A DNA stretch of 64,000 nucleotides, taken from Methyloversatilis discipulorum. Its GTDB lineage: Bacteria; Pseudomonadota; Gammaproteobacteria; Burkholderiales; Rhodocyclaceae. Shown piece by piece: positions 6,322 through 35,220 of this stretch. The notes under the pieces are model-generated. The model searched no databases, was not told where the DNA came from, and saw nothing but the letters and a program-made list of their open reading frames with translations. Position 1 is the first letter of the stretch. Each line of letters opens with the position of its first letter. The stretch covers positions 282,766 through 346,765 of the forward strand of contig NZ_JADMJL010000016.1 of assembly GCF_018780585.1 (NCBI RefSeq), given 5' to 3'. Both the position numbers and the translations under genes were made by a program.

Positions 6322-7119
6322 ATGTCAGTACCGATCAACGTGACGCTGCCGGCCGTTCGCGTGCTGCGGCGCACTGCCGCATGCAGCCTGATTGCGCTGT
6401 GCATGGCGGCACCGGCGTCCGCCGGCCACTTCCCGATGTACGCCGCCTGGGCACAGCCGGACGGGCCGGGCAGCGCCATCACGCTGACCTACAGTTTCAG
6501 CAATCTGCTCGACGGCAGTCTGCTCGACGGCGCGACCGGCGCGCCGCTGCCCGTGTCGCTGTTGCGCAGCGCGTTCGAACTGGCGCTGTGGGACTACGCC
6601 GCGGTACTGCCCATCCATTTCGTAGAGGTGAACGACGGCGGACCGCTGCCGGAAACCGGTGAGTACGACCCGACCGGGCTGGCCGACATCCGCGTCGGAC
6701 AGGTGGCGCACATCGCCGACGCGAATGCCTATGCCTATTTCCCGTTCTCGCCGGACAGCGGTCTGGCCGGCGATATCGTGTTCAATGCCGGACGCTTCGG
6801 CAATGACTGGACGCCGCTCTGGTTCTACGCGGTCGCCCAGCACGAGCTGGGTCATTCGCTCGGCATGGGGCACTACGTCAACGACGATCCGGTCACGGTC
6901 GGACCCGCTGCATTGCTGTCTTACGAAGGTCCGGTTTTCCCGCTCGACGCGGCCACTCGCGCTGCGCTGCAGGGTGTGTATGGCGCAGGCGTCGGTTCGG
7001 TGACGCCGCTGTCGCCGGTGCCGGAGCCGGGCGCTGCGGCGCTCATGCTCGCCGGCCTGATCGTGTTGCGCGCGAGGACGCAGCGTCGCACATCGCGGGG
7101 GAGCGGACGTCATGGCTGA
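6322..7119 (+). CDS. PEP-CTERM sorted matrixin-like metalloprotease
   Basis: A secreted zinc-metalloprotease-like protein of 265 aa. A signal peptide ends near ASA-G (residue 34). The metzincin zinc motif HELGHSLGMGH lies at 174-184, with all three His present. The C-terminus carries the PEP-CTERM signal: VPEP at 233-236, a hydrophobic segment and an Arg-rich tail. In this class the tail is cut by an exosortase; no exosortase gene is in the window. The start at 6322 is chosen because AGAGG lies 6 nt upstream and a signal peptide follows. The next gene overlaps it by 8 bases and encodes a second protein of the same general type. Substrate is unknown. Confidence 0.85.
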   Translation: MSVPINVTLPAVRVLRRTAACSLIALCMAAPASAGHFPMYAAWAQPDGPGSAITLTYSFSNLLDGSLLDGATGAPLPVSLLRSAFELALWDYAAVLPIHFVEVNDGGPLPETGEYDPTGLADIRVGQVAHIADANAYAYFPFSPDSGLAGDIVFNAGRFGNDWTPLWFYAVAQHELGHSLGMGHYVNDDPVTVGPAALLSYEGPVFPLDAATRAALQGVYGAGVGSVTPLSPVPEPGAAALMLAGLIVLRARTQRRTSRGSGRHG

Positions 7120-8068
7120 ACGTGCATGCAGAGTTCACCGGCGGAGCGCTCGCATGGCGCTCGCCCTGGCGCTGTCCGCCGGCGTTCCGAATGCCGTGTC
7201 GGCACTGCAGATCGAGTTCGACTACCGCTACGACACGCGCGGCTTCTTCACCGATCTGGCGACCGGCGAGCCGCTGGCCGAGCGTCGCGCACTGCTCGAC
7301 CTTGCCGCGTCGTTCTACGGTGGTTTCACCGACACGCTGACTGCCATCGCACCCGGAGCGGGTGACAACTGGTCGGTGTCCTTCGTGCATCCCAGCCTCG
7401 GCGGCCCGGGCGTGACGCTGGTGAACGAAACGATCGCCGCCGACACGCTGCGCATCTACGTCGGCGGCTCGCCGAGTGCGCCCGGCGTGCTCGGTTTCGC
7501 CGGCACCGGATCAAACCTGCAGGCCAGCGGTGACGCGGCTTTCGTCGATGCAGTGATGACACGTGGGCAGGCCGGCGTGGCGCAGGGGACCGACTACGCC
7601 ACCTGGGGCGGCTATATCTGGTTCAACGCCAGCAACGACTGGTACTTTGGCGCGGACGCCGGCGGTCTGACTGCCGGTCGGCCCGATTTCCTGACCACTG
7701 CGACGCACGAGATCGGACACATCCTCGGCTTTGGCGAGGCTGACTCCTGGTACGCCAATGTCGATCCGGACAGCGGACTGTTCGTCGGTGCGAACGCGGT
7801 CGTGGCCTACGGCGGTGGCGTGCCGCTGGACCGCTACGGCAGCCACTGGGCCGAAGGTACGTACAGCCTGCGCGACGGCGTGCTGCAGGAAACGATGATG
7901 GATCCGAGCACGCCTGCCGGTGAGCGCCAGCTGCCGACTGCGCTCGACTATGCCGGTTTCGCCGACATCGGCTGGCAGGTGTCGGCGGTGCCGGAGCCGG
8001 CCGGCTGGGCGCTGCTGCTGAGCGGTGTCGGCATCGTCGCGGTCGTGCGGCGACGTCGGCCTGCCTGA
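7112..8068 (+). CDS. PEP-CTERM metalloprotease-like protein with HExxHxxGF motif
   Basis: A 318-aa secreted protein with an Arg-rich N-terminus followed by a short hydrophobic signal segment (about 15-31). A zinc-binding motif HEIGHILGFGEAD lies at 199-211, a possible distal third ligand His245 in GSHW, a Met-turn-like TMMDP at 261-265 and a C-terminal PEP-CTERM signal with VPEP at 293-296. The position of the third His in matrixins holds Glu209 here, so the protein is not a plain matrixin. A distal third His would resemble leishmanolysin-type metzincins (inference). It overlaps the upstream protease gene by 8 bases, so the two are coupled. Met15 is an alternative start. Confidence 0.8.
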   Translation: MAERACRVHRRSARMALALALSAGVPNAVSALQIEFDYRYDTRGFFTDLATGEPLAERRALLDLAASFYGGFTDTLTAIAPGAGDNWSVSFVHPSLGGPGVTLVNETIAADTLRIYVGGSPSAPGVLGFAGTGSNLQASGDAAFVDAVMTRGQAGVAQGTDYATWGGYIWFNASNDWYFGADAGGLTAGRPDFLTTATHEIGHILGFGEADSWYANVDPDSGLFVGANAVVAYGGGVPLDRYGSHWAEGTYSLRDGVLQETMMDPSTPAGERQLPTALDYAGFADIGWQVSAVPEPAGWALLLSGVGIVAVVRRRRPA

Positions 8069-8156: not shown

Positions 8157-9512
8157 ATGAAAATCCGCTTTCTCGGCGCGGCCGGTACGGTCACCGGTTC
8201 GCGCTACCTGCTGACGCATGGCGGTCATCGCCTGCTCGTCGACTGCGGCCTGTTCCAGGGCGTGAAGAACATCCGCAGTCGCAACTGGAAGCCCTTTCCG
8301 ATCGCGCCGCGCGATATCGAGGCGGTGGTGCTGACGCATGCCCACCTCGATCATTCCGGCTTCCTGCCACGACTGATGCGAGAGGGCTTTCGCGGCCCGG
8401 TATGGTCGACTTCGGCCACCCGCGAACTGGTCGACATCCTGCTCGAAGACAGCGCCCATCTGCAGGAGGAGGACGCCCGTCACGCCAACCGCTACGGCTA
8501 CAGCAAGCACCACCCGGCGGAGCCGCTTTACACCTCGGACGACGCGCGGCAGGTGATGAAACAGTTCCGCAGCGCGGGTTTCGACGAGCCGGTGGAGATC
8601 GGGCCCTTCCGTATCACCTTCACGCGCGCCGGCCACATTCTCGGTGCGGCCAGCGTGCGCGTCGACTGCGCCGGTCGCAGCATCACGTTCAGCGGCGATC
8701 TCGGGCGTCCGGACGATCCGGTCATGCACGCGCCGGACCGTCTCGCCGCCACCGACTGGCTGGTGCTCGAATCGACCTATGGCGACCGCCTGCACCCGGA
8801 CGAAGATCCGTACGAAACGCTGGCCGGCATCGTGAACCGCACCGCTGCGCGCGGCGGTACCGTGCTGCTGCCTTCGTTCGCGGTCGGTCGTTCGCAGGCG
8901 CTGATGTACCTGCTGTCGCGCCTGATGGACGAACACCGCATCCCCGAACTTCCGGTCTTTCTCGACAGCCCGATGGCGATCGACGTGACCGGCGTGTTCC
9001 GTCACTTCCGCAGCGAGCATCGGCTGACCCAGGATGCCTGCGACCGGCTGCATGCCATGGTCACCTACACGCGCTCGCCGGAGGAGTCGGAAGCGCTGGC
9101 GTCCAACCGCTACCCGAAGATCATCATCGCCGGCGCCGGCATGCTCAACGGCGGCCGCATCCTGCACCACCTGATCGCCTTCGGAGCCGACCCGCGAAAT
9201 GCGGTGGTGATCGCCGGTTACCAGGCCGAAGGCACGCGTGGCGACGCGCTGCTCAAGGGCAAGCGCAGCCTGCGCATCTTCGGTCGCGATGTACCGATAG
9301 CCTGCGAGGTGGCGCAGGTCGAAGGCCTGTCGGCGCATGCCGACTGGAAGGAAATACTCGAGTGGCTGCGTCCGGTCGATCGCGCCCCGCAGTGCGTGTT
9401 CGTCACGCACGGCGAGCCGGTCGCCGCCGACAGCCTGCGGCAGAAGCTCGAGCACGAACTCGCCTGGTCGGCGCAGGTCCCGGAGCAGGACGAAGAGTTC
9501 GACCTTGACTGA
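8157..9512 (+). CDS. metallo-beta-lactamase fold beta-CASP RNA hydrolase
   Basis: A 451-aa protein of the CPSF/YSH1-like family of metal-dependent RNA nucleases. The MBL metal motif HAHLDHSG lies at 61-68, preceded by LLVDCGLFQG. Later family blocks are visible: FSGDLGRPDDPVM, the beta-CASP region (PVFLDSPMA) and the C-terminal LSAHADW. It is cytosolic, with no signal peptide. A strong ribosome-binding site (GGAGG) sits a few bases before the ATG. The bacterial members are thought to process or degrade RNA; the exact substrate cannot be told from sequence. It runs convergent with the response-regulator gene that follows. Confidence 0.9.
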   Translation: MKIRFLGAAGTVTGSRYLLTHGGHRLLVDCGLFQGVKNIRSRNWKPFPIAPRDIEAVVLTHAHLDHSGFLPRLMREGFRGPVWSTSATRELVDILLEDSAHLQEEDARHANRYGYSKHHPAEPLYTSDDARQVMKQFRSAGFDEPVEIGPFRITFTRAGHILGAASVRVDCAGRSITFSGDLGRPDDPVMHAPDRLAATDWLVLESTYGDRLHPDEDPYETLAGIVNRTAARGGTVLLPSFAVGRSQALMYLLSRLMDEHRIPELPVFLDSPMAIDVTGVFRHFRSEHRLTQDACDRLHAMVTYTRSPEESEALASNRYPKIIIAGAGMLNGGRILHHLIAFGADPRNAVVIAGYQAEGTRGDALLKGKRSLRIFGRDVPIACEVAQVEGLSAHADWKEILEWLRPVDRAPQCVFVTHGEPVAADSLRQKLEHELAWSAQVPEQDEEFDLD

Positions 9513-9553: not shown

Positions 9554-9997
9554 TCAGAGCACCGGCGGCGGTTCGTTGATCAGCGCCCAGAACACGCCCA
9601 TCTGCGTCACCGTGCGCGAGAACTGATCGAAATCGACCGGCTTCACGACATAGGCGTTGATGCCCAGGCTGTAGCAGCGACGCAGGTCGGGGTCTTCCTT
9701 CGATGAACTCATGATGATGACGGGCAGCGCACGCATGTCTTCGTCGGCGCGCAGTTCGGTCAGCATTTCGATGCCGTCCATGCGCGGCATGTGCAGGTCC
9801 AGCAGCACGAAAAGCGGCACCTCGCCGCTGCGGTCGGCGTAGCTGCCGCGCTTGTAGAGGTAGTCCAGCCCTTCCGCACCGTCGCGTACGACGACGATCT
9901 CGTTCGCCAGATTCAGCACGCGCAGGCCGAGCAGCATCAGTTCGACGTCATTGTCGTTGTCATCGACGACAAGGATTTCACGCAAGTGCAGCGACAT
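9554..9997 (-). CDS. stand-alone Rcp1-like response regulator
   Basis: A single receiver domain of 147 aa with no output domain. The acidic pocket is in VDDNDND (residues 11-17), the phospho-acceptor is Asp67 in LLDLHMPRMDG, the Thr/Ser position is MSSS and the conserved Lys is in VVKPVD. This subfamily usually pairs with phytochrome-like or ethylene-receptor-like kinases. The ATG at 9997 is chosen because upstream frame residues are Pro/Arg-rich and lie inside the kinase gene. It overlaps the 3' end of that kinase gene by 20 bases, so the two are almost certainly one operon. It presumably acts through protein-protein contact. Confidence 0.9.
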   Translation of the reverse strand: MSLHLREILVVDDNDNDVELMLLGLRVLNLANEIVVVRDGAEGLDYLYKRGSYADRSGEVPLFVLLDLHMPRMDGIEMLTELRADEDMRALPVIIMSSSKEDPDLRRCYSLGINAYVVKPVDFDQFSRTVTQMGVFWALINEPPPVL

Positions 9998-11174
9998 CGT
10001 TGGCTCCCGTAGGGTGGGTGGCGTCGGCCGGGGGTGGGTCGGATGGGGTGGGAAGGGTGAAGTGGAAGCTGGCGCCCTGACCTGGCACGGCCTCCGCCCA
10101 GATGCGGCCGCCGTGCCGATCGACGATGCGCTTGACGTTCGCAAGTCCGATGCCGGTGCCTTCGAATTCGGCGGCGTGATGCAGCCGCTGGAATACCCCG
10201 AACAGCTTGCCGGCGTATTTCATGTCGAAGCCGGCGCCGTTGTCGCGCACGTGGAAGGTGTATTGGCCATCGTTGTCGCGCTCGCATTCGATGTGGATGC
10301 GAGCCGGGTTGCGGCCTCGCGTGTACTTCACGGCATTGGCGATCAGGTTGTAGAACACCTGGAACATCAAGGTCCGGTCGGCGCGAATGCGCGGCAGCTC
10401 ACCGATGCTGATATCGAGCTCGCGTCCGTCGAGTTCGGGCGCCAACTCTTCCAGCACGTCGTCGACCAGGGCGCGCGTATCGCAACGTTCGAGATGCATC
10501 TCGGCGCGGCTCGCGCGGGAGAATGCAAGCAGTCCTTCGACGATGTCGCTCAGATGCCGCACCGAGGCGCGGATGCGCTGCAGATAGCTCAGCGAGGCCG
10601 GTTCGGTGTCGATGACGCCGAGGCGATCGCCGAGTACGCGCGCAAAACCGTCGATGTGGCGCAGCGGGCCACGCACGTCGTGCGCGATGGCATAGGACAC
10701 TGCTTCCAGTTCCTCGATCTGCAGGCGCATCCTTTCGTTCATCGCCTGCAACTGCGCTTCGGACTGTTGCCGGCGCTCGATTTCGGCCCGCAGTTCCTCG
10801 TTTGCGCGACGCAGGCTGTCGGGCGAGGGCAGGGCGAGCGCCAGTGGAATCAGTCGCCACAGCAGCACTGCGGTGGCCAGCGACACCACCGCGGTGAAGG
10901 CGCGTATCCAGCCGTCCAGCCAGAAATCGGGGTTCCACAGCGTCCACACGTCCATCACGTGGGTCACGCCGCAGGCCATGATGAACACGCCGAACATGAC
11001 GAAGGCCGACCGGAAGCCGAGATCGGCACGCCTCCGCACGAACACCCACAGCGTGACCGGTATCGTGAAGTAGGCCAGCGCGATCAGCGTGTCTGACAGC
11101 ACGTGCAGCAGCAGCAGATCGCGTTGCCACGAAAAGCAGTAGCCGTGTGGAAGAAGGGTGTTCAGTTCCGTCAT
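9978..11174 (-). CDS. histidine kinase with ETR1-type (ethylene-receptor-like) membrane sensor
   Basis: A 398-aa membrane histidine kinase. Residues 20-112 hold three membrane segments that follow the N-terminal domain of plant ETR1. All five residues known to matter for copper/ethylene binding are present with identical spacing: Asp28, Tyr35, Ile65, Cys68 and His72 (ETR1 Asp25, Tyr32, Ile62, Cys65, His69). A coiled coil (about 118-160) leads to a HisKA domain with His165 in AHDVRGPL. The ATPase domain carries NLIANAVKY, DNGAGFD and GTGIGLANV. There is no GAF domain between sensor and kinase, unlike ETR1. The partner receiver gene overlaps its 3' end. Known bacterial relatives include the Synechocystis sensor SynEtr1. 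Ethylene binding here is inferred, not shown. Confidence 0.9.
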   Translation of the reverse strand: MTELNTLLPHGYCFSWQRDLLLLHVLSDTLIALAYFTIPVTLWVFVRRRADLGFRSAFVMFGVFIMACGVTHVMDVWTLWNPDFWLDGWIRAFTAVVSLATAVLLWRLIPLALALPSPDSLRRANEELRAEIERRQQSEAQLQAMNERMRLQIEELEAVSYAIAHDVRGPLRHIDGFARVLGDRLGVIDTEPASLSYLQRIRASVRHLSDIVEGLLAFSRASRAEMHLERCDTRALVDDVLEELAPELDGRELDISIGELPRIRADRTLMFQVFYNLIANAVKYTRGRNPARIHIECERDNDGQYTFHVRDNGAGFDMKYAGKLFGVFQRLHHAAEFEGTGIGLANVKRIVDRHGGRIWAEAVPGQGASFHFTLPTPSDPPPADATHPTGANDVAALA

Positions 11175-11509: not shown

Positions 11510-12394
11510 TCAGACGCGTGGCATGCGTCGGCGTGCGATCGCACCGATCAGCCCGAGGCCGGCCAGCAGCATCGCGTAGGTTTCAGGTTCGGGTACCGGC
11601 GCCATGAACGGCGCCGAGGTCAGGCCACGCAGGTTGGCGTTGAGTGCGCCATTGAAGGTGGCCAGCCCGGTCATCAGGTTGATCGAATAGAGACCGCTGT
11701 CACCGTTGTCCAGCGTCAGAGCGGCCCAGCCCATGCCCATCGCGTCGATCTCGAAGCCGTTGGCACCGATCACGTTGCCGGCAACGCCCAGCGATCCGAC
11801 CTGGCTGATCGTCGGCGCATTGAAGGCGCCGGGTGCGAAATGCAGCGTGTCGGTCGCCGTGTCGATGTAATACAGCGCCGTGCTCGCCGGGCCACTGGAT
11901 TGCGAAGCATCGGAGTTGGTGTAGGCGACGGCCGTGATGCCGCCCGGGATGACGCTGGCGGCGTTGCCGACCACGCCGGTGTTCGCGTTGATGGCCAGGT
12001 TGCTGCCGGTCTGGCTCACCAGGCGCAGCGAGGCTGCGCCGGCGAAGTCGGCCACCGGGTTGAAGTCGATGCCGTAGGACAGCGACGGATTGACCAGCGG
12101 GATGTCGAGCGCCGACACGAAGCTGGCGGCACCTGTCGTGACGTCCAGCGTATAGACGCGATTCAGGCTGCTGACGCCGTAGATCATGTTGTTGCTCGGG
12201 CGCAGGTCGATGCCGAGGATGCGTTCGCCACTGCCCAGCCCGGTGATGGACATGAAGCTGGCGCTGCTGGCGTTGCCGCTGCTGAACATGCCGATCTGGT
12301 TGCCGGTGGTGAGACCGACGAAATCGGCTGCGTGGGCCGCGGTGCCGGACAGAGTGAGGGCGGCGGCGAGGACGGTGAGGGTGCGTGCTGACAT
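11510..12394 (-). CDS. DUF4394-like PEP-CTERM protein
   Basis: A 294-aa secreted protein of unknown function. A signal peptide ends near AAHA-A. The body resembles DUF4394 beta-propeller-like repeats, with the phrases GIDLRPSNNMIYGV, YTLDVTTGAA and YGIDFNPVADFAG. The C-terminus is a PEP-CTERM signal (VPEPETYAMLLAGLGLIG followed by ARRR). The ATG at 12394 is chosen because AGGAAAGG lies 6 nt upstream and the signal peptide begins there. It is probably monocistronic, followed by a strong hairpin. It is the third PEP-CTERM protein within 6 kb. Confidence 0.85.
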   Translation of the reverse strand: MSARTLTVLAAALTLSGTAAHAADFVGLTTGNQIGMFSSGNASSASFMSITGLGSGERILGIDLRPSNNMIYGVSSLNRVYTLDVTTGAASFVSALDIPLVNPSLSYGIDFNPVADFAGAASLRLVSQTGSNLAINANTGVVGNAASVIPGGITAVAYTNSDASQSSGPASTALYYIDTATDTLHFAPGAFNAPTISQVGSLGVAGNVIGANGFEIDAMGMGWAALTLDNGDSGLYSINLMTGLATFNGALNANLRGLTSAPFMAPVPEPETYAMLLAGLGLIGAIARRRMPRV

Positions 12395-12514
12395 GTCTGA
12401 CCTTTCCTGAAAAAGTAGGGGAGGACGCGTCACCAGAGTGAGTCGTCACCCGCTCTACACAGGAGGGGGCCGCATGGATGCAGCTGTCACCGAAAATTCA
12501 TCCGGCCGCGCCGG

Positions 12515-13267
12515 TCAGATTTCGCGCGCGTTGCGCTCTCTTTCCATGCGCAGGATGTAGCGCTGGATCAGCGCGTCGGCGGCACCGGGCAGGCCGATGA
12601 ACTGGCAGCCCGCACGCAACTCGCTGCCGCCGCGCTCGGTGACGCGGAACATGTTGCGCACCTGCAGCGTCGCGGTGATGGTGCCGATCTCGGGCAGCGT
12701 GATCTGGCAGTTGTCGATCACGCTGTCGACCTTCAGTTCGACGCCGCTCGGCGGCGCGACGACGGCCAGACCGCCGCCGGAAATGTCCACCACGGTGGCT
12801 TCAACCATGCGCCCCTCGCCGTCGCCGGCCGGCAACAGACAGCGCAGCGGCGGGTTAGGCGGCAGGATGAGGCGGTAGTAGTCGCGCCGCTGCAATCGCA
12901 GCATGCGCGTCGGGAAGGGGATTTCCAGCGCCGGATGACCTTCGTGCTCGATTGCGGCGCACTGGCCGACCATGAACTGCACCTTCACCTTCTCGAGCGA
13001 GGTCAGGAACACCAGTGGCGACGCCTTCACCGCCTGTTCGAGTTGCGCCGGGTCTCGCGGTGCGTCCAGTACGACCACGCCGCGTGCGTCGTCGACGGCC
13101 AGTACGGCGGTCAGAAAGGGGTCGGGCGCGCGGCCGGCATAGACGGACAGATTGACGCGGCGATCCCGCATGGCGCGCAGGTAAAAGGCGATATCGGTCT
13201 GGCCGTCGAGCACGTAGCGTGCGAAATCGTCTGCTTCCAGCAGATCGAACCGGATGTTCTCGGTCAT
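12515..13267 (-). CDS. ycgR: flagellar brake protein YcgR (PilZ domain)
   Basis: YcgR binds c-di-GMP and then slows flagellar rotation through the motor. The 250-aa product has an N-terminal YcgR-type domain (about 1-115) and a PilZ domain whose c-di-GMP motifs are complete: the Arg pair in RRDYYR (127-132) and DISGGG (161-166). ATG 13267 is preferred to 13276 because AGGG lies 8 nt before it, although both are possible. It lies at the distal end of the leftward flagellar cluster and fits functionally with the diguanylate cyclase at 19149-20900. Confidence 0.93.
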   Translation of the reverse strand: MTENIRFDLLEADDFARYVLDGQTDIAFYLRAMRDRRVNLSVYAGRAPDPFLTAVLAVDDARGVVVLDAPRDPAQLEQAVKASPLVFLTSLEKVKVQFMVGQCAAIEHEGHPALEIPFPTRMLRLQRRDYYRLILPPNPPLRCLLPAGDGEGRMVEATVVDISGGGLAVVAPPSGVELKVDSVIDNCQITLPEIGTITATLQVRNMFRVTERGGSELRAGCQFIGLPGAADALIQRYILRMERERNAREI

Positions 13268-13324
13268 TGGGTACATCCCTGTCTATGGGCAATCACCCGG
13301 TGCGGCGGCGCACCGGGCACGAAT

Positions 13325-13627
13325 TCAATCAGATGGCAGTTTAACGGCTGGCGCAGGAACGTCGGTCATTCCCTTCTCGATGCGGTAGATCCAGGCCAGC
13401 AGTTCGGCGACCGCGACATAGAGTTCGGGCGGAATGCGCTGGTCCAGATCCAGTCCCATCAGCAGCGACACCATCTCCCGCGATTCATGCACGAAAACGC
13501 CCGCTTCGCGCGCGCGGCGGATGATTTCGTCGGCCACCATGCCGCGCCCCTTGGCGACGACACGCGGCGCGGCGTCGCCGGCACCGTAGGCGAGCGCAAC
13601 GGCCTGGGCGCGCGGAGAGGTGTTCAT
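13325..13627 (-). CDS. FlhB C-terminal-domain-like protein (FhlB/FlhX type)
   Basis: A 100-aa cytosolic protein similar to the cytoplasmic tail of the export-gate switch FlhB. It has ALAYGAGDAAPRVVAKGRG, corresponding to the FlhB region after the autocleavage site, and the downstream EAGVFVHES segment. It lacks the membrane part and the NPTH cleavage motif. Such stand-alone FlhB-C homologues are known beside fliK and can partly replace the FlhB tail. The ATG is fixed by its one-base overlap with the fliK stop (TGATG). Confidence 0.85.
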   Translation of the reverse strand: MNTSPRAQAVALAYGAGDAAPRVVAKGRGMVADEIIRRAREAGVFVHESREMVSLLMGLDLDQRIPPELYVAVAELLAWIYRIEKGMTDVPAPAVKLPSD

Positions 13628-14868
13628 CAGACGCTGCTCTCGCCGTCGTCGGGCAGGGCGGCAAGCGCCTCGTCCAGCTGGCTGAAGTTCACGCTGCCCA
13701 GGCGCAGTCCGGCATCGGTCATGCGCTGCTGCAGGTCGAGCAGAGCGGTGCCCATGCGCAGGCGTGCATCGTCGTCGGCCGATATGCCCAGCGTCAGTCC
13801 ATGGTCCTTCCACAGCGTGAGCGAGGTTTCGACCTCGCCCAGGCCCGGCAGGACCAGCCGTACCCGGGATGTCCACGGGACTTCCGGCGTGCTGTCACCT
13901 TCGGTGCCCGGTTCGCCATGACGCTGAGGCTCAGGGTCGTCGATCTCGATCTTCATCGTCTGCCCCGGCCAGGCCAGACCTTCCCAGGCCAGCGTGTGCT
14001 GGGACAGGCCGAGCAGCTGGTTCTGCACCAGCGGCCGCAGTTCGGCGGGCGGGCCGGTATCGGCCTTGGCCGCTTCGGCGCGTTCGCGCACGCCGGTGTC
14101 GCTGCGCAGGGTGCCGGTGTCCGGCATCGATTCGTCGTCGGCGCGAGCGCTGATCGTGCTGTCTGCGACCTGTCCGGGTTCCGGCGTGTCGTCGGTCGCT
14201 GCCGATTGCGCGACTGGCAGGCCGGCGCGTGGCGCCGGTTTCTCGGGGTCGAAGGCGCGCTGCGGCTCGGCTGCGGTCGATTCGAGCGGCCGTTCGCCAC
14301 TGACCCACTGCGCCTGATGCGATTCGTAGAACAGCCCGCTGGTGCCGATCGCCTGCGCCAGACGGCTGGCGATCTGCGGTGTGGCGTCGTTTTCGAGCGT
14401 GCCGGTGGCCGCGCTCAGCATGGCGGCCGGATCTATCATCGGCTTTCCACTGGCGAGTCGGGTCGGCTGCGGCTCCGGACCGTCGAGCAGTCCGGCGATG
14501 GTGCGGGCCGGCACGCTCAGGCGTACCGGGCTGCCGGCATTGTCAGCCGGCGCATCGCCGTCGGTCGGCGCCGCGTTGTCACCGTCGAGCGTGGCCACCA
14601 GCGTCTGTGCGCTGCGGGCCACGTGCGTCAGCGCAACGGTACGGCCTTCGGGAATGGTCTGCGGCAGGCGCAGGGTGACCGTCTGTCCACCCACGTCGGC
14701 GCGGGCCAGACCATCGCGTAGATTCTGCAGGATGCGTGCGGTGTAGCGTTCGCCCGGCTCGAACTCGGGCAGCTGGTCGGAAAGCGCAGCGATCGGGCCG
14801 GTGGTCTGGACCGATTCGCGCGTCAGCGCCGCCAGACGCTGTGCGAGCCCTGGCAGCAGGTTGTTCAT
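13627..14868 (-). CDS. fliK: flagellar hook-length control protein FliK
   Basis: FliK measures hook length and switches export specificity through FlhB. The 413-aa product has a variable, disordered Pro/Ala/Asp-rich centre and the conserved C-terminal domain (TSLTLWKDHGLTLGIS, then LRLGSVNFSQL). The start at 14868 (MNNLLPG) is 7 nt after the fliT stop. Its neighbour is the FlhB-tail homologue, the expected partner. The N-terminal half is poorly conserved across FliK proteins, so identification rests on the C-terminus and context. Confidence 0.85.
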   Translation of the reverse strand: MNNLLPGLAQRLAALTRESVQTTGPIAALSDQLPEFEPGERYTARILQNLRDGLARADVGGQTVTLRLPQTIPEGRTVALTHVARSAQTLVATLDGDNAAPTDGDAPADNAGSPVRLSVPARTIAGLLDGPEPQPTRLASGKPMIDPAAMLSAATGTLENDATPQIASRLAQAIGTSGLFYESHQAQWVSGERPLESTAAEPQRAFDPEKPAPRAGLPVAQSAATDDTPEPGQVADSTISARADDESMPDTGTLRSDTGVRERAEAAKADTGPPAELRPLVQNQLLGLSQHTLAWEGLAWPGQTMKIEIDDPEPQRHGEPGTEGDSTPEVPWTSRVRLVLPGLGEVETSLTLWKDHGLTLGISADDDARLRMGTALLDLQQRMTDAGLRLGSVNFSQLDEALAALPDDGESSV

Positions 14869-14875
14869 GGTGTGC

Positions 14876-15175
14876 TCAGCCGTTGTCTGCCGTGCCCGCC
14901 GGCAGCTTTCCCAGATAGCTGGTGACCTGCTGCATCCACGGTTCGACGTGACGGCGCACTTCTGCATCGTCGGCGAGAATCTGCTTCATCAGGTCGAACT
15001 TGCGCGCACGCTCGGCCGGCGAGGACACCGGCTCGTCGTTGTCGGCGAGTCGGCTGCGCATCGAGGCGACGGCCTGTTCGAGATTGACCAGACGGTCCCA
15101 GTCGTTCGCGCGCGCGGCCTCCACCATGTCGCTGGAGATCTGACGCATGTTTTCGAGCAGTGACAGAGAGTTCAT
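14876..15175 (-). CDS. fliT: flagellar chaperone FliT
   Basis: A 99-aa helical protein, the expected size and position for FliT, the export chaperone for the filament cap FliD. It has the conserved NDWDRLVNLE segment near residue 25. It lies between fliS and fliK in the leftward cluster. Confidence 0.85.
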   Translation of the reverse strand: MNSLSLLENMRQISSDMVEAARANDWDRLVNLEQAVASMRSRLADNDEPVSSPAERARKFDLMKQILADDAEVRRHVEPWMQQVTSYLGKLPAGTADNG

Positions 15176-15320
15176 GTGATCAGGCCGTTTTGCGTAAGTG
15201 TCGCCGCGGCAGTTCCGTCGTTCGGCCGGCGGTGAATGGTGTGTAAAGACTACAGCGGACCCCGTGCTCCGAGGCGTGCATGTAGACGCCTTTTACCTTT
15301 CTATTTTCCCGGTTTGCCGG

Positions 15321-15734
15321 TCAGACCGGCGCCCCTTGGACCAGTTTTTGCCGGATGTCCTCCCAGGCGCCCTTCAACTCGCCCAGCAGGTGGGCCACTT
15401 CATCGAGCGCGGCCTTGTCGTTCTGCGAGTTGGCATGCAGCAGGCGCACGCACATGTAGTCGTAGAGCGCGTACAGGCGTTGCGCGAGTTCGCCGCCTGC
15501 TTCCAGATCCAGGCTGACCTTGAGGCCGTTGCCGATGATGTCGATCGCACGCGAGATCGACTGACCCTTGCCCGCAGTGTCGCCCATGTCGATCTGGTGG
15601 CTGGCGGTCGATACCGACATCATCGCGCCGTCGAACAGCATCAGGATGAGCTGGTGCGGATCGGCGCTGGCCACGCGTGCCTCGACGCCGACCTGGTTGT
15701 AGGCCATGCGCGGGTTGGAAAGTGATGCAAACAT
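15321..15734 (-). CDS. fliS: flagellin export chaperone FliS
   Basis: FliS binds the C-terminus of flagellin and prevents premature polymerisation. The 137-aa product has the family segments YNQVGVEARV, PHQLILMLFDGAM and the C-terminal helix LLGELKGAWEDI. It follows fliD and precedes fliT, the usual order. A CCGGTCTGACCGG palindrome overlaps its 3' end. Confidence 0.95.
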   Translation of the reverse strand: MFASLSNPRMAYNQVGVEARVASADPHQLILMLFDGAMMSVSTASHQIDMGDTAGKGQSISRAIDIIGNGLKVSLDLEAGGELAQRLYALYDYMCVRLLHANSQNDKAALDEVAHLLGELKGAWEDIRQKLVQGAPV

Positions 15735-15780
15735 GATGTTCTGGTCCCGTTAGAGGATGGCTGTATCGTCCGCCGCTCTG

Positions 15781-17196
15781 TCAGCTCGAATAGGTCGGCA
15801 GGCTGGCGAGTTGTTGTGTAAGGAAGGTACTGGTCGTGTTCATGCTGCTGATCAGCGAATCGAGCGCGGTGAACTGTCGGCGGTAGCGGGCCTCGATCTG
15901 TTCCATGCGAACGTTCAGCGCGTCGCGCTGGCGGTTCATCGCCTTCTTCGTCTCTTCCATGCCTTCGAGACGGTTGCCGATGAGGCCATCGTCGTCGATC
16001 ACGGACGAGATCATCGAGTCGATCTTGGACGCCAGACCGGTCACACCGGTACTGCCCATGAACAGCGACTTGGCGGCGCCGCTCTCCAGCGCCGTGGTGA
16101 GCTTGTCGGAGTCGATCTTCAGCGAGCCGTCCTTCTGCACCGACACACCGATGCTGCCCAGCGAAACACCCGGGGCAATCTCTTCGGTGACGGCCGAGGC
16201 GAGACGCGAGCGCAGGCTGAGCACGGTGCTCTCGCCGTTCAGTGCCGCACCGGTCTGCGTGGTCGTGTTGTAAGACGTCTGATTCTTGATGGTCAGGATG
16301 GCGTCGTTGTAGCTCTTGACCAGCTTTTCGATGGCGCTCTTCGCGCCGGTGTAATCGGCGCCGACCGTCAGTGTCGTCGGGTTGCCGACGTTGGTGCTTT
16401 TCAGCGTCAGCGTGACGCCTTCGATGGTGTCGGTCAGCGTGTTGCTGCTCGAGGTGACATCGATGCCATTGATCTTGAGCACGGCATCCGAAGCGGTCAC
16501 CTTCTCCGAAAGATTGGAGGTGCCGCCAGTCGAGGCGTCATAGATCAGCCGCGACAGGCCTGCGTTGTCGGTGTTGTTGCCGTCATCGTCGGCGGCGGTG
16601 ATGCGTACGGTATTCGCGGTGCCGCCATCCTGCGAGGTCAGCACGAGGCGGGTGCCGGTGCCGTCGTTGAGCAGGGATGCCGTCACGCCTGCGTCGGCCG
16701 CGTTGATCGCGTCACGCACGTCAGCGAGCGTGGCAGCGCCGCTGGAAATGTCGATGTTGACCGCTGTCTTGTCCGGGTTCGCGGTGAATGCGCCGCCGCT
16801 GTAGCTGCCCAGTTCGATGGTCAGCGTGCCGCTGCCGACGTTCGCGGTGCTGCCGCCGGCGAAGGCCGTCGACGCGGTGACCTGCGCGCGGGCCAGGCTG
16901 CTCACCTCGATTGAATAGTTGCCGGGCGTCGCCGTCGTCGAGGCGGCAACCGTTGCCACCGCGCTGTCGGCAATCGTTGCCTTGCGGGAGGCAAAGATTT
17001 CCGCCTTGCCGAGTGCTTCCGCTGCCGTCTGCAGCGTGGACATCGCGCCCTTGATCATGCCGTAGCTGGAAATCTTCGTTTCGAGCTTGGCCTGCTTTTC
17101 CGCGAGCAGCGTGAGCGGACGCTGCTCGACCGTCATCAGCTGCGTGACGATGGAGCTGATGTCCAGGTTGGTACCGAATGCGAGCGACGATGCCAT
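15781..17196 (-). CDS. fliD: flagellar filament cap protein FliD
   Basis: FliD caps the filament tip and assists flagellin insertion; it is exported through the flagellar channel. The 471-aa product begins with the conserved SSLAFGTNLDISSIVTQL and ends with a coiled-coil region. The middle is Ser/Thr/Ala-rich as in other FliD proteins. It lies 10 bp after flaG on the minus strand, so flaG-fliD-fliS probably form one transcript. Confidence 0.96.
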   Translation of the reverse strand: MASSLAFGTNLDISSIVTQLMTVEQRPLTLLAEKQAKLETKISSYGMIKGAMSTLQTAAEALGKAEIFASRKATIADSAVATVAASTTATPGNYSIEVSSLARAQVTASTAFAGGSTANVGSGTLTIELGSYSGGAFTANPDKTAVNIDISSGAATLADVRDAINAADAGVTASLLNDGTGTRLVLTSQDGGTANTVRITAADDDGNNTDNAGLSRLIYDASTGGTSNLSEKVTASDAVLKINGIDVTSSSNTLTDTIEGVTLTLKSTNVGNPTTLTVGADYTGAKSAIEKLVKSYNDAILTIKNQTSYNTTTQTGAALNGESTVLSLRSRLASAVTEEIAPGVSLGSIGVSVQKDGSLKIDSDKLTTALESGAAKSLFMGSTGVTGLASKIDSMISSVIDDDGLIGNRLEGMEETKKAMNRQRDALNVRMEQIEARYRRQFTALDSLISSMNTTSTFLTQQLASLPTYSS

Positions 17197-17206
17197 GGCA
17201 GTCTCC

Positions 17207-17557
17207 TCAGGCCTTGCGTTCGATCAGTCCACTCTGGCTCTTGCCGAGCGACCGCGCAATCGCAATCAGTTCTTCGGAAGGAATCTGCCGCAGTACTTCC
17301 TTGGTGGTCGAGTCGATCAGCCGCACGATGGTTTTCCCTGTGTCTTTGTCGATCGTGAAGAGCAGGTTCTGTGCCACCGGTTCGATCTTGCGACGAATCT
17401 CGTCCACCGTCTGTTCGATCTGTTCGTTGCTGAGCGCCGCCTCGCTGGGTGGTGCTTCCGCCTTCTTGCTCTCCGGCATAACGGGCTTTGCCCCGGTGGT
17501 CGCCTGGACGCCCGGGGCAGAGATCGTTGCGCTGTTCGGGATAGGCTGTATGGCCAT
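17207..17557 (-). CDS. flaG: FlaG family flagellar protein
   Basis: A 116-aa protein with the FlaG signature: LLFTIDKDTGKTIVRLIDSTTKEVLRQIPSEE near the C-terminus, preceded by a flexible N-terminus. FlaG influences filament length in other bacteria. It lies between fliC and fliD, its usual place. GGGAG lies just before the ATG. Confidence 0.93.
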   Translation of the reverse strand: MAIQPIPNSATISAPGVQATTGAKPVMPESKKAEAPPSEAALSNEQIEQTVDEIRRKIEPVAQNLLFTIDKDTGKTIVRLIDSTTKEVLRQIPSEELIAIARSLGKSQSGLIERKA

Positions 17558-17579
17558 GATGTTCTCCCTATGCTGGGTG

Positions 17580-17603
17580 GGGGGCGCGGTCGCCCGCGCC
17601 CCC
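17580..17603 (-). terminator. GC-rich hairpin after fliC
   Basis: A perfect 10-bp stem (GGGGGCGCGG/CCGCGCCCCC) with loop TCGC lies between fliC and flaG. No T-tract is seen on the minus strand, so it may stabilise the flagellin mRNA end or only partly terminate. Confidence 0.6.
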
Positions 17604-17622
17604 TCATTACTGCCTTACGCGA

Positions 17623-18816
17623 TCAGCCGCGGAGCAGGCTCAGCACGTTCTGCGGCAGCGAGTTGGCTTGCGCCAGCATCGCGGTACCGGCCTGCTGCAG
17701 GATCTGCGCGCGGGTCAGGTTGGCGGTTTCGGCAGCGAAGTCCGCGTCGGTGATGCGGCTCTTCGAGGCGGAGATGTTTTCCGCTTGCGTCTGCAGGTTG
17801 GCCACGGTGTAGTCGAGGCGGTTCTGCTGGGCACCGAGGGCGGCACGCTGTTCCGACACGTAGGTCAGGGCGTCTTCGACCGAGGTCAGCAGCGCCTGCG
17901 AGTTGGCGGCCGTGGTGGCGCCGGTGAAGGCGGTGATGTCGGTGTCCAGGGCAACCATGCGGGCGTCGGCTGACGTGGCGTTGATACGCGTGTCGCCGAA
18001 GGTGAGCGTCAGGCGGTTGTCGGCAGCGTCGTCAGCACCGACCTGGATTTCAGCGCCAGTGGCAGCGGTCGTGATGATGGTGCCAGCGTCGAGGTCGGCA
18101 GCGATGTTGGCGCCGGTCTCAGCACCCGAAGCCTTGATCGTCACCTTCACGCCGAGCTCGTTGTAGTTCAGCTCGTACGATTGGCCTGCGGTCAGCGCCA
18201 GGGCGGTGATGTCGATCATCTGCGAGTTCGTGCCGTCCGACAGCGTCAGTTCGCCGGTGTTGGCGTCGGCGAAGGTGAAGGTCGTGCCTGCGGCGGCGCC
18301 GGTGATGTCGACCTTGGTCACTGCGGCGGTGCCGGAAGTGGCCAGGTTGAAACCGCCCTGCACGGTCGAGGTGGTGTCGAGTGCCTTGCCGAAGGAACCA
18401 TTCAGCAGCTGCTGGCCGTTGAACTTGGTACGGGTCGAGATGTTGTTGATCTCGTCGCGCAGCTGGGTCATTTCGTCGGCGATGAAGGAGCGCTCTGCGT
18501 CGGCCAGCGTCGAGTTCGAACCCTGGGTCGCCAGTTCCTTCATGCGGATGAGCATGTCCTGGATCTGCGACATGCCGCCTTCAGCGGTCTGGATCATCGA
18601 GATACCGTCGCTGGCGTTACGGGCAGCCTGGTTCAGCGACTTGACCTGGGCGTTCATGCGCTGCGAAATCGCCAGACCAGCGGCATCGTCACGGGCGCTG
18701 TTGATGCGCAGACCGGACGACAGACGCTGCAGCGAAGTGGCGAGCGAATTCTGCGAGGAATTGAGGTTGCGCTGAGCGGTGAGCGAGGCAACGTTGGTGT
18801 TGATGATTTGCGGCAT
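17623..18816 (-). CDS. fliC: flagellin
   Basis: The filament subunit, 397 aa. The conserved D0/D1 ends are clear: the N-terminus INTNVASLTAQRNL with the TLR5-type helix QRLSSGLRINSA, and the C-terminus with QAGTAMLAQANSLPQNVLSLL. The central variable region (about 170-290) is Thr/Ala/Asp-rich. It heads the leftward cluster behind a sigma-28-like promoter. Only one flagellin gene is present in the window. Confidence 0.98.
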   Translation of the reverse strand: MPQIINTNVASLTAQRNLNSSQNSLATSLQRLSSGLRINSARDDAAGLAISQRMNAQVKSLNQAARNASDGISMIQTAEGGMSQIQDMLIRMKELATQGSNSTLADAERSFIADEMTQLRDEINNISTRTKFNGQQLLNGSFGKALDTTSTVQGGFNLATSGTAAVTKVDITGAAAGTTFTFADANTGELTLSDGTNSQMIDITALALTAGQSYELNYNELGVKVTIKASGAETGANIAADLDAGTIITTAATGAEIQVGADDAADNRLTLTFGDTRINATSADARMVALDTDITAFTGATTAANSQALLTSVEDALTYVSEQRAALGAQQNRLDYTVANLQTQAENISASKSRITDADFAAETANLTRAQILQQAGTAMLAQANSLPQNVLSLLRG

Positions 18817-18896: not shown

Positions 18897-18923
18897 GTAA
18901 CGGAGAGGGGAGAGAAAACTTTA
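18897..18923 (-). promoter_or_regulatory. sigma-28 (FliA) promoter of fliC
   Basis: On the minus strand, TAAAGTTT (18923-18916) is an exact -35 box for the flagellar sigma factor. After 11 nt it is followed by TCCGTTAC (18904-18897), 5 of 8 to GCCGATAA. The box lies about 80 bp before the flagellin ATG. Confidence 0.7.
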
Positions 18924-20900: not shown

Positions 20901-21018
20901 GTGCGGAATGAGTTAACGGTTTGTAACGAAGGCAAACAACGGCAATCGACCTGCCGTCTTTAGGGGCATGTCGTGCAAAAGTTGTCACACGGCGCCGCGA
21001 CAGCGATGCGACCCATAT

Positions 21019-24029: not shown

Positions 24030-25226
24030 TTACCGCCTCCGCCAGCCTTCGCCATAGGTCGCCTTGATGTACGCCTCGTCGGGGTCGAACCCCATCTCGT
24101 GCAGCCTCATGTCTCGGTCGGCCCGCGTGTTCATGTCGGCGGGTGACTCCGTCTTCCGATAGACCCGCGGGGCGGCCACTCCGTCGAAGTTCCATTCCGC
24201 CCACCAGCGCACGACGGACCGGTTGAAGCTCTCGCAAACCAGATCGGCGTCGGCCTTCACCACGTCATCGCGCACGCTCTTCTGCGTGTCGTCCGCGCCC
24301 AGCTTCCCGGGCGTGCCCTCGGTACTGGCCGTCTGTGACAGCACGACCTTGGCGATCGCCTTGTCCATGTAGCCGCACATGGTCGCGTAGTCGGCGGTAC
24401 CGGTGCGCGTTGCCTCGATCAGGTCTACGACGAGGTTGTCGGGGATGATCACACCGCTGTCGGTGGCGATGGAGTCGAGCACCTTGCGTGCTTCCTCGAT
24501 GGTTTTCGGATCGTCCATCATGCCGGCCGGAACCGTCGCCTTTGTGGTCGGCTGGCCGAAGCGCTCCAGGAACACCAGCCAGAACTTCACGCCGTTGCGC
24601 TTGAAGAAGACCGGCCAGTAGATCGAGTGCGCCAGGCCCAGCCCGTAGGGGTCGTCGTGGCTGTCGCCGCCGGCGGTGATGGTCCAGAACTTCCGGTCCG
24701 GCATTTCCTCCAGCGTGCCGCCGTTGCGCAGCAGGTAGAGCGCACCGCTGTGGCCGAAGCGGAAGCGCGAGCGGTCGCGCACCTTCACGTCGGCGATGCG
24801 CACGCGGTCCGGGCCAGGCGCCCACATCACTTCACCGATACCCCAGCCATAGAAGACGCTGAACAGCGCCTTGTCGGTGATGTCGTCCCAGCGGATCGCC
24901 TTCAGATCCTCGCGCAGGGCTTCTGCGGCCTCCTCGGCGCGCGCGTCCTCGGCGCCGGGCTCGACAACCCACTCGCGCGACACGACCGCAGTGCGCCGCT
25001 GCTGCAGTGTGCTGCGCACCTGATCGTCGCGCAGCAGTTCCTTGTAGATCGCCAGCTGGCCGATGCCGCCGCCCTTCGTCTGGATGATCGTGTCGGTCGG
25101 CGCCAGCACATCCATGTAGCCGTTCATGCGCGCGCCGACGTTCGCGAGGGCGCCGATATGGTCGGGCCTTGCAATCTCCAGCGTTTCGAGTTTGGCCGGC
25201 GCGTCTGCCGTGTCGGTGCTGCTCAT
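24030..25226 (-). CDS. Mu gp29-like portal protein (DUF935)
   Basis: A 398-aa member of the DUF935 family, the portal of Mu-like phages through which DNA enters the capsid. Recognised blocks are LLRDDQVRSTLQQRRTAVV, FSVFYGWGIGEVMW and the central KFWLVFLERFGQP. The length is a little under that of Mu gp29, which is above 500 aa, so the C-terminal part may be shortened. In Mu the large terminase gene precedes the portal gene; here only 3 bp separate it from a small HTH gene, and no terminase large subunit is present. Confidence 0.85.
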   Translation of the reverse strand: MSSTDTADAPAKLETLEIARPDHIGALANVGARMNGYMDVLAPTDTIIQTKGGGIGQLAIYKELLRDDQVRSTLQQRRTAVVSREWVVEPGAEDARAEEAAEALREDLKAIRWDDITDKALFSVFYGWGIGEVMWAPGPDRVRIADVKVRDRSRFRFGHSGALYLLRNGGTLEEMPDRKFWTITAGGDSHDDPYGLGLAHSIYWPVFFKRNGVKFWLVFLERFGQPTTKATVPAGMMDDPKTIEEARKVLDSIATDSGVIIPDNLVVDLIEATRTGTADYATMCGYMDKAIAKVVLSQTASTEGTPGKLGADDTQKSVRDDVVKADADLVCESFNRSVVRWWAEWNFDGVAAPRVYRKTESPADMNTRADRDMRLHEMGFDPDEAYIKATYGEGWRRR

Positions 25227-25229
25227 GTT

Positions 25230-25724
25230 TCAGTCTCCAAGGTGCGGCCGGTTGCCCGCCTGCTGCTGGTTATCCTGCTGGTGGTCGCGCGCGAGGATCG
25301 CGGCCAGTTCATCGTCCGTAAATTCGTGGGCGTTGCGGGTTTCCTGCTTGATCGGCGGGGCGTCGGCGTCGCCGCCCAGCGCAAGACGCTCGGGCCTGTC
25401 CAGCCCCAGCAGGCGCGCACGCCTTTCCATGATCTTCAGGATGCGGTCGACGGCTGTCGCATTGCCTCTTTTGGCCTTGCCCCAGAGGTATGTCTGCATG
25501 GCGTCCAGGCGGTCGAGTTCCAGAGTGCGGATTTCGTCCGCCAGCTCGCTGCACTTGGCGAGGTTGCGCGTCAGGCCGCGCTTCACCAGCTTGTGCGCGT
25601 TGCCCAGGCTCATGTTCAGCGTCTTGGCGATATCCCGGTAACTGGCACCGGTCCGTCGAAGGTCCAGCGCCAGTTGTTCCGATTGGGCCGTGGTGACGGC
25701 CTCCGCTCCGGTCGGGCATTTCAT
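25230..25724 (-). CDS. HTH protein, possible small terminase subunit
   Basis: A 164-aa protein with an N-terminal helix-turn-helix (ASYRDIAKTLNMSLGNAHKLVKRG, about 28-51), a charged helical middle and a Gln-rich tail. Position directly before the portal gene suggests the small terminase (DNA recognition) role, as in Mu-like phages. A plain regulator is also possible. Start MKCPTG at 25724. Confidence 0.6.
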   Translation of the reverse strand: MKCPTGAEAVTTAQSEQLALDLRRTGASYRDIAKTLNMSLGNAHKLVKRGLTRNLAKCSELADEIRTLELDRLDAMQTYLWGKAKRGNATAVDRILKIMERRARLLGLDRPERLALGGDADAPPIKQETRNAHEFTDDELAAILARDHQQDNQQQAGNRPHLGD

Positions 25725-25746
25725 GACTGTTCATCCTCAGTAGCGT

Positions 25747-26160
25747 TCATCGTGCCGGTGCCGCTTGATTCGAGGCGGCGCGAGTTTCGCGGTCCTGCAT
25801 CTTCGCGAGTACCGCGTCGATTCCCGGGCGTGTGAGCCCCCAGCGATGGGACAGACGCTGTTTGCTGGCGCCGTCTTTCCACTCCTGGTAGATCAGGGCG
25901 TTCCGTAGATCGATGGTCGCGTTGCGCTCGATCGGAAGGGGCAGCGTGCAGCGCGGATACTCGGCGGCCAGCTTCTGCGCTGCTTCGAGGCCGATGGCGA
26001 AGGCAATGGGGTGCATGCGGTCTATGCGCTCGGGCACGTACAGGTCGCGGCCACCCCAGCGGCTCACAAGGTCAAGGCATGCCGGCAAGCCGATTACGTC
26101 GGCGATTTCCTTCACGATCTTCTGCAAGGTCTGGGGCTCCTGGTTTGGTTGGTCGTGCAT
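25747..26160 (-). CDS. Mor-like transcription activator
   Basis: A 137-aa protein of the Mor/C family that activates middle or late promoters in Mu. Visible signs are DLVSRWGGRDLYVPE (30-44), the middle block IERNATIDLRNALIYQEWKDGAS (78-100) and a C-terminal HTH (KQRLSHRWGLTRPGIDAVLAKM). The start at 26160 is set because the upstream frame lies inside the tape-measure gene. It sits between the tape measure and HTH/portal genes, an unusual place for Mor. Confidence 0.75.
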   Translation of the reverse strand: MHDQPNQEPQTLQKIVKEIADVIGLPACLDLVSRWGGRDLYVPERIDRMHPIAFAIGLEAAQKLAAEYPRCTLPLPIERNATIDLRNALIYQEWKDGASKQRLSHRWGLTRPGIDAVLAKMQDRETRAASNQAAPAR

Positions 26161-26164
26161 GCGG

Positions 26165-28483: not shown

Positions 28484-28504
28484 CGCTGTGCATCTCCAAT
28501 GCGC

Positions 28505-28909
28505 TTAAGTAGCAGCGCCAGGGGTATTGCCAGACGCCGGCGTGGCCGTGAGTGACGAGGGCGAGGGCGTTTCGCTCAATGCCACGGGCGACAGAAGCTG
28601 GCGCGCGATGGACGCTTGCGCCGCTGCTACTGCCGCCCGAACCCGAAAAAAACCGGGGTTCAGTGCGCGGGCGGCTTCGCGGATCGGCTCGATCTGGCTG
28701 GGCGCCATGTCGTCGAACGCCTCGCGCGGCATGTCCGACATGCGAACGAGGTCATCGACGCTGCAGTCCTCGAAGACGAACTCGCCGGCTACGTCGATGG
28801 TCTTGCTGCCGCTCTCGATCTCGGTCACCCAGTCGCGGACCTCGCCGACGGTCAGCTCTCGAACCGTGACGGCGCGTCCGTCGACGTCGACCTGTTTGGT
28901 TGCGCTCAT
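28505..28909 (-). CDS. putative phage tail assembly chaperone
   Basis: A 134-aa protein just before the tape measure, the place of the tail assembly chaperone (gpG/gpGT-like) in long-tailed phages. It starts MSATKQVDVDGRAVTVRELTVGEVRDW and has a Pro/Ser/Thr-rich tail. Similarity is general; position is the main evidence. Some such genes use a programmed frameshift; I did not find a clear slippery site. Confidence 0.55.
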   Translation of the reverse strand: MSATKQVDVDGRAVTVRELTVGEVRDWVTEIESGSKTIDVAGEFVFEDCSVDDLVRMSDMPREAFDDMAPSQIEPIREAARALNPGFFRVRAAVAAAQASIARQLLSPVALSETPSPSSLTATPASGNTPGAAT

Positions 28910-29023
28910 GTGTGTGTCTCCAGTTGGGTTGCGGGTGCCGGCCACGCTCCCCTTCCTATGGCGAAGCTGCCGGCTGTCGGGGTTGCTTTCATGAACTGGG
29001 TGACTCGCCGACTGAGACCCAGT

Positions 29024-29043
29024 CCCGAGGCTCGCGCCTCGGG
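29024..29043. terminator. 8-bp hairpin between tail chaperone and coiled-coil gene
   Basis: CCCGAGGC/GCCTCGGG around TCGC lies in the 173-bp gap 28910-29082. There is no T-tract. The gap otherwise shows no gene. Confidence 0.4.
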
Positions 29044-29082
29044 CACCTGACCCGCTGCTTGCGCAGCAGGCGATCGGTTCGG

Positions 29083-29775
29083 TTATCGACCGGCCTTCAC
29101 CGGCCACAGCGCGCCCAGGTTCTTGAACTCGGTCAGCAGATGGCCGTGGGCCGCCATCCATTGCTTCGTCGTGTAGGTGGCGACGACACCGCGAATACCG
29201 CCGCCGACGACTGCGGCGCTTTCGGCCAGGCTGACGGGACCAATCACGGGAAGCTGCATGTCGACGCTGCAGCTTGTTGCAGGCGGGCATGCCTTGCGGT
29301 GTTCCAGCATGGCGCCGATGGCTTTGACGTGCGCATAGGCGTCTGCAGCGCTCTGCGCGGCCGCCGTGTATGCCTCGTCTGCCGCTGCCAACTCGGCTTT
29401 CAGCCACTCGCCGGTCGCCTCGATCAAGTCCTGTTCTGCATCCTCGATCGCGCCTTGGGCCTCGGACAGCCGGCGCTCGAGGCCGGCGCGACCTTCGGCG
29501 AGCTGGCGCGCGTTGAACTCAGCTGCGGCGGCATCGATCTCCAGGTCGGAAGCTTCCCGGCGCGCCGCCTCCAGCGCCTCGGGGGAGGCCTCGCCCAGCA
29601 TCACGGCTGCGCCCAGGTCTTCCACCTTCTCGCGGGCTTTGGCGAGCAGCTGCGCATCGAACGCCGCCGGCTGCGCGTTCATCGCATCGCTGATGCGGCG
29701 CGCGTTCCGCCGCGCCTGCTCCAGCCGCTCGGCAGCTTCCTGGACGGCTTTCTTCGTTTCCTTCGTGGTCGTCAT
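29083..29775 (-). CDS. coiled-coil hypothetical protein of the element
   Basis: Not recognised. The 230-aa product is mostly a long Ala/Glu/Arg-rich coiled coil (about 5-165) with a short hydrophobic Gly/Val-rich segment near 185-200 (SLAESAAVVGGGIRGVVA). It lies between the helicase and tail chaperone genes; scaffolding-like or structural roles are possible but not shown. Confidence 0.6.
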   Translation of the reverse strand: MTTTKETKKAVQEAAERLEQARRNARRISDAMNAQPAAFDAQLLAKAREKVEDLGAAVMLGEASPEALEAARREASDLEIDAAAAEFNARQLAEGRAGLERRLSEAQGAIEDAEQDLIEATGEWLKAELAAADEAYTAAAQSAADAYAHVKAIGAMLEHRKACPPATSCSVDMQLPVIGPVSLAESAAVVGGGIRGVVATYTTKQWMAAHGHLLTEFKNLGALWPVKAGR

Positions 29776-29814
29776 TGCGGTTCCTTCAGGTGTGGGTTGT
29801 GGGGTGGTGATCGG

Positions 29815-32742: not shown

Positions 32743-32751
32743 GACGTGGCC

Positions 32752-33871: not shown

Positions 33872-33964
33872 CCGCGCTCCCTCTCGCGCCCCTTGTGAAG
33901 GTGCCGCGCCGGCCGGGCAAGGGATCCCGGTTTTCCTCCCGTCGGAGTAGGCGCGGCGTGCTGC

Positions 33965-35217: not shown

Positions 35218-35220
35218 GGG

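Follow-up and report, generated by a model that had tools for sequence, protein, structure and literature searches.

The kinase gene and its partner

The window, a stretch of 64,000 nucleotides from Methyloversatilis discipulorum, carries on its minus strand a gene for an ethylene-receptor-like histidine kinase of 398 amino acids (9978..11174), present as a single copy in its genome. A sequence-only reading of this DNA had singled out 10839-11174 on the same strand, which corresponds to residues 1-112 of the kinase. The protein consists of an ETR1_N sensor domain (residues 20-115; 10830..11117, minus strand), a coiled linker, a HisKA domain with His165, and a HATPase_c domain. The profile search against the ETR1 N-terminal family that the reading had proposed returned PF25487 with 131.7 bits against a cut-off of 27 (E = 1.2e-38), which is not a chance match. 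An unrelated membrane sensor was rejected as an explanation, as Pfam pointed to ETR1_N and to no rival sensor family. HisKA and HATPase_c scored 33.6 bits (cut-off 26.9) and 91.3 bits (cut-off 26.4), respectively. Pfam found no PAS or GAF domain in the 398 residues, and no photosensor (cyanobacteriochrome) was found either. Kinase residues H165, N280, D311, G313, G315, G343, and G356 are kept in at least 90% of 29 aligned proteins.

An alignment of 29 proteins, comprising that of the window and 28 from related loci, was the input for an AlphaFold model with a mean pLDDT of 84.9. Three helices were predicted for the sensor, at residues 18-48, 55-80, and 84-114, with mean pLDDT values per ten residues of 87-95 over 21-110 and 89 for 111-120. 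Together with the profile match, they agree with the three ETR1-like membrane helices of the earlier reading. A long coiled helix (118-185) then enters HisKA and is followed by the ATPase fold. In a Foldseek comparison with the PDB, the top sequence identity among the 50 matches listed was to the kinase domain of RpBphP2 (8f71, 38-39%). None of the 55 matches listed from a PDB sequence search covered the sensor domain, the earliest beginning at residue 112.

The kinase gene overlaps by 20 nt with a gene for a receiver-only response regulator of 147 amino acids (9554..9997, minus strand), whose ATG stands 17 nt ahead of the stop codon of the kinase gene. The first usable regulator start precedes the kinase stop by 17 nt (nine) or 20 nt (two) in all 11 other carriers of the genus. 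Receiver residues D12, D13, D67, S97, and K119 were read from the sequence. The regulator had 14 PDB matches at 1e-10; the best bear general names only, and the named ones include RcpB, RcpA, and Rcp1, to which it is related. The two proteins hold the phospho-acceptor His, the ATPase motifs, and the receiver phospho-acceptor Asp of a two-component system.

Beyond the regulator gene, 8157-9512 (plus strand) encodes a beta-CASP protein of the metallo-beta-lactamase fold. In NCBIfam the type VII CRISPR Cas14 model fits it best, but the score of 405.5 bits falls short of the cut-off of 800, and the protein is therefore probably an ordinary relative that acts in RNA processing. A prophage-like stretch (24030-36758) includes a Mu-type portal, a tape-measure protein, a DnaB helicase, and a phage integrase.

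The predicted binding site and its variation at positions 28 and 91

All seven residues that are described as needed for ethylene binding in AtETR1 are kept in the sensor, as D28, Y35, I38, P39, I65, C68, and H72. The sequence-only reading had listed D28, Y35, I65, C68, and H72; all five are present, each at its ETR1 number plus 3, and I38 and P39 (I35 and P36 of ETR1) complete the set of seven. Tyr32 of ETR1 was reportedly placed among the required residues by Wang et al. in 2006. Published work names I35, P36, I62, C65, and H69 among them, and D25 likewise. The exact ETR1 spacing that had been claimed holds for helices 1 and 2, but the residue on helix 3 that pairs with the Asp departs from it. 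Where AtETR1 has Lys91, the window kinase has Arg91, which stands 63 residues past Asp28 rather than 66 as in ETR1, and by residue numbering the connection between helices 2 and 3 is three residues shorter than in AtETR1. A Lys at this place is a common and not a defining feature, being found in 149 of 176 rows of bacterial sensors. The helix-3 Lys of ETR1 (K91) is reported to take part in receptor output. According to a FEBS Lett. 2025 paper (PMC12643061), the copper site is formed by Asp25, Cys65, and His69, and the ETR1 membrane domain is reported to bind one copper ion per monomer (PMC6586836).

All 12 Methyloversatilis carriers have Arg91, and six of them (L007 and L009-L013) have Asn at position 28; these six form one clade in both the marker tree and the kinase tree. 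A second genus of the order shows Asn28 with Arg91 as well (L027, L029, L032, and L035). We then compared the two positions across bacterial sensors, in a set of 176 rows from which one row had been dropped for coverage; the counts cover matches with a locus and omit the duplicate loci L001, L036-L049, and L127-L130. The full seven residues were found in 135 rows, 127 with Lys91 and 8 with Arg91. Asn28 with the other six intact was found in 12 rows, in which position 91 was Arg in nine, Asp, Leu, and Tyr in one each, and Lys in none, although the rows are related and such raw counts therefore overstate the case. Glu28 with the other six intact occurred in two rows, one of them with Lys91. The only row that combines Asn28 with Lys91 (L198) has a ruined site (NCIAFRN).

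Seven more rows of the 176 were dropped for the tree of that set. Another tree was limited to the 164 rows whose copper ligands are intact; the 12 rows omitted had degenerate sequences or damage to the copper site, and included L032, which is Asn28/Arg91. Parsimony placed five gains of Asn on this tree, each of which ends on a non-Lys branch. Such branches account for 19.6% of total tree length, and the chance of all five gains falling there is about 3e-4. This is a rough estimate, resting on parsimony, midpoint rooting, and a single tree built from a short domain; the root state was also ambiguous, and L197 has a non-Lys background for that reason. A stricter test, of independent pairs for Asn28 against non-Lys91, run on 146 rows with three degenerate rows omitted, yielded just three usable pairs, on starred branches, of which one agreed and two were without difference. 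Arg91 preceded Asn28 on the tree in Methyloversatilis. A second Arg lineage, which returned to Asp in two rows (L023 and L024), has the two changes together on a single branch, as do two isolated rows.

The primary study of the ETR1 Asp is said to be that of Azhar et al. in 2023. A 2026 review (PMC13012798) describes a salt bridge between this Asp and the conserved Lys, and states that the Asp-to-Asn form of ETR1 is functional with an affinity about 100-fold lower and that natural variants exist. The AzoEtr1 paper (PMC11819568) states that mutation of D25 in AtETR1 abolishes binding; the two sources thus disagree on the severity of changes at this residue. By prediction, the Asn28 clade of the genus would have a sensor of low affinity.

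Flagellar neighborhood and distribution

Upstream of the kinase gene, and on the same strand, lie a gene for a DUF4394 PEP-CTERM protein (11510..12433), a ycgR-like gene for a flagellar brake with PilZN and PilZ domains (12515..13276), and a block that the Pfam names identify as fliC-flaG-fliD-fliS-fliK-like (13627..18816), before whose fliC lies the gene for a GGDEF protein. The kinase and regulator pair ends the block fliC-flaG-fliD-fliS-fliK-like-ycgR in 11 of 12 carrier genomes, these being the window and 10 of 11 relatives, with the ycgR-like gene upstream of the pair in each. In the window and in relatives L036 and L037, the DUF4394 gene stands between ycgR and the kinase gene; in seven of the other eight relatives with the flagellar placement it lies behind the regulator gene, and it was not found in L042. 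Adjoining genes at 6325-8068 (plus strand) encode two putatively secreted proteins, a PEP-CTERM protein and one resembling matrixins (M10, below the cut-off); only some genus members have matches to their full length in the flagellar region.

Two genomes of the genus depart from this arrangement. In G011, the flagellar block lacks the pair, which lies about 130 kb away (L046 and L130); its kinase falls in the clade of the window, and transfer or relocation of the pair is possible. G011 stands beside the window group in the kinase tree and apart from it in the marker tree, a conflict that could reflect recombination or long-branch effects. In G012, the block and the DUF4394 gene are present and the genome has no ETR1_N match. 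This genome is nested in a supported group of carriers in the tree of five flagellar-region proteins, so loss is the simplest reading.

ETR1_N matches (E <= 0.001) were found in 12 of 13 Methyloversatilis genomes, several of which are single contigs, and in none of the eight genomes of other genera of the family among those listed. At the same threshold, the draws from the order, class, phylum, and another class of the phylum gave 22 of 300, 16 of 369, 29 of 398, and 28 of 385 genomes, respectively, of which 2, 4, 1, and 0 fell short of the curated cut-off; every draw counts its own center genome, and the draws overlap slightly. The domain is thus sporadic overall and nearly universal in Methyloversatilis. 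Record titles of the related loci (Methyloversatilis sp., Betaproteobacteria bacterium) bear out the betaproteobacterial host proposed earlier. None of 86 related loci outside Methyloversatilis had flagellar neighbors by tblastn at 1e-8, a weak control in that the threshold catches close flagellar homologues only, some contigs are short, and just 23 loci are non-cyanobacterial; the other 63 we take to be cyanobacterial from the genus names in their titles. Flagellar linkage as a general trait of such receptors is therefore unsupported. The placement is old within the genus, at a spot with gene turnover, and is known nowhere else in the loci compared.

Control of the kinase gene by FliA (sigma-28) was rejected, as the promoter scan found no site before it. 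With a FliA-type consensus, 24 sites were found in the scan against 12.5 expected, and fliC and the GGDEF gene are each preceded by a site with one mismatch (18898-18923 and 20937-20962, respectively). The sole exact match in the window to a stricter version of the pattern (51664-51689) lies shortly before a gene for a small protein whose DNA-binding domain is of the AP2 type, familiar chiefly from plants (51774-52274, plus strand), and just upstream of that gene is one for a Ser/Thr kinase with a cyclic-nucleotide-binding domain (50226-51608).

Relation to known receptors and proposed signaling

Domains of this kind are predicted in many proteobacteria and cyanobacteria (PMC7700396), and the window kinase is an ordinary member of the known class of bacterial ethylene receptors. 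Among its closest parallels is the AzoEtr1/AzoRR-etr1 pair of Azospirillum brasilense, in which a seven-residue ETR1_N domain is likewise joined to a histidine kinase and the gene of a small regulator without an output domain overlaps the kinase gene (PMC11819568). Ethylene binding was measured for AzoEtr1, whose residues 1-130 bind when expressed in Pichia and which that paper terms the first functional proteobacterial receptor; it localizes to the cell pole, and its D35A and C75A forms do not rescue biofilm. AzoEtr1 differs in its length of 525 amino acids, its PAS domain, and Lys98 at the place of Arg91, although the 63-residue spacing from the Asp (D35/K98) is common to both, and its named upstream neighbors are non-flagellar, unlike those of the window kinase. 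Plant receptors such as AtETR1 (PF25487) share the sensor domain, the copper ligands, and the other binding residues; compared to AtETR1, the window kinase has neither GAF domain nor fused receiver. SynEtr1/UirS and other cyanobacterial receptors also combine ETR1_N with a histidine kinase, but SynEtr1 has in addition a cyanobacteriochrome domain (PMC6682694). Bacteriophytochrome kinases with regulators of the Rcp1 type (RpBphP2, 8f71; Rcp1, RcpA, RcpB) have a related kinase domain and regulator, the photosensor being replaced here by the ethylene-receptor membrane domain. The useful difference from the known class is the combination of a short receptor, a phytochrome-like kinase, a flagellar neighborhood kept in the genus, and an Asp/Asn series on an Arg91 background.

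We consider that the kinase is probably a small ethylene receptor that depends on copper and belongs to a two-component system, and ethylene binding by its sensor is likely. In favor of this reading are the profile score, the seven residues, the near-universal presence in the genus, the regulator overlap, the flagellar placement, and a sensor better conserved than the kinase domain; Arg in place of Lys91 and the conflict of trees over G011 count against it. The sensor dimer would hold Cu(I) through Cys68 and His72, and ethylene would bind the copper within the membrane. Helix 3 and the coiled coil would receive the signal through the polar pair of Asp28 and Arg91, and kinase activity and phosphorylation of the regulator at D67 would be altered. 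The regulator would work through contact with other proteins, with motility or attachment as the probable target, given the flagellar and YcgR neighborhood.

A motility output of the pair is possible, and its main competitor accepts the ethylene receptor but gives it a biofilm, cell-surface, or stress output with no flagellar role, the flagellar site being an accident of the genus. AzoEtr1 affects biofilm, and its loss left swimming unaffected as judged by aerotaxis bands, so a motility output is not implied by kinship. Loss of SynEtr1 in Synechocystis, in contrast, is reported to give faster twitching motility, and ethylene to change phototaxis in two cyanobacteria. The absence of flagellar neighbors from the 86 loci outside the genus and of the domain from G012, despite its flagellar block, also fits such an accident. 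Against it, the placement is kept in 11 of the 12 carriers although sensor identities fall as low as 76%, and the neighbors are a c-di-GMP flagellar brake and a GGDEF protein. On the premise of an ethylene receptor, we give this competitor somewhat less than an even chance.

Alternatively, the sensor could bind copper through Cys68 and His72 and report copper or redox state, with ethylene binding incidental or absent. Across 149 sensor rows (one of 150 dropped for coverage), these two residues were the most constant of the seven (147 and 145 rows), compared to 132 rows for Asp28 (12 Asn, 3 Glu). A literature search on Methyloversatilis and ethylene listed no title on ethylene sensing, and we know of no link between the genus and ethylene. 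However, Y35, I38, P39, and I65, which are not proposed copper ligands, were nearly as fixed (139-144 rows each), and no copper-handling gene was recognized among the neighboring genes scanned. Five above-cut-off matches to the copper-ATPase family elsewhere in the genome say nothing either way, because the family is present in 14 of 14 control genomes. The sequence-only reading had offered ethylene or copper as the cue; the analysis found no pointer to copper as a signal, copper being a cofactor in ETR1, and a possible response to ethylene is the best reading of that proposal. A copper or redox sensor is, in our judgment, distinctly unlikely.

A degenerate sensor that binds no ligand, with a constitutive kinase or one driven by another cue, would accommodate Arg91 in every carrier and Asn28 in half of them, but is very improbable, since the corresponding Asn25 form of ETR1 is reported to be still functional and the sensor is the most conserved of four segments compared (residues 9-116, 76-87% identical to nine more distant genus members, with dN of 0.08-0.16; kinase residues 156-378, 62-66% and 0.24-0.29; dS 0.68-1.17 over both).

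For the ethylene receptor that we favor, the changes at positions 28 and 91 suggest one further scenario. Affinity could have been retuned repeatedly, a change of the helix-3 Lys (to Arg in two lineages) permitting the change of Asp to Asn; the pair at the syntenic Methyloversatilis locus would then gate flagellar motility, and sister species would have high- or low-affinity control of swimming. Taken as a whole, this scenario is rather doubtful. Ethylene sensing beyond plants stands on few tested proteins. A small receptor in which position 28 varies naturally between Asp and Asn while Arg91 stays constant offers a test of the Asp-Lys polar bridge as the feature that sets ethylene affinity, and its location beside motility genes makes an action of ethylene on bacterial flagellar motility directly testable.
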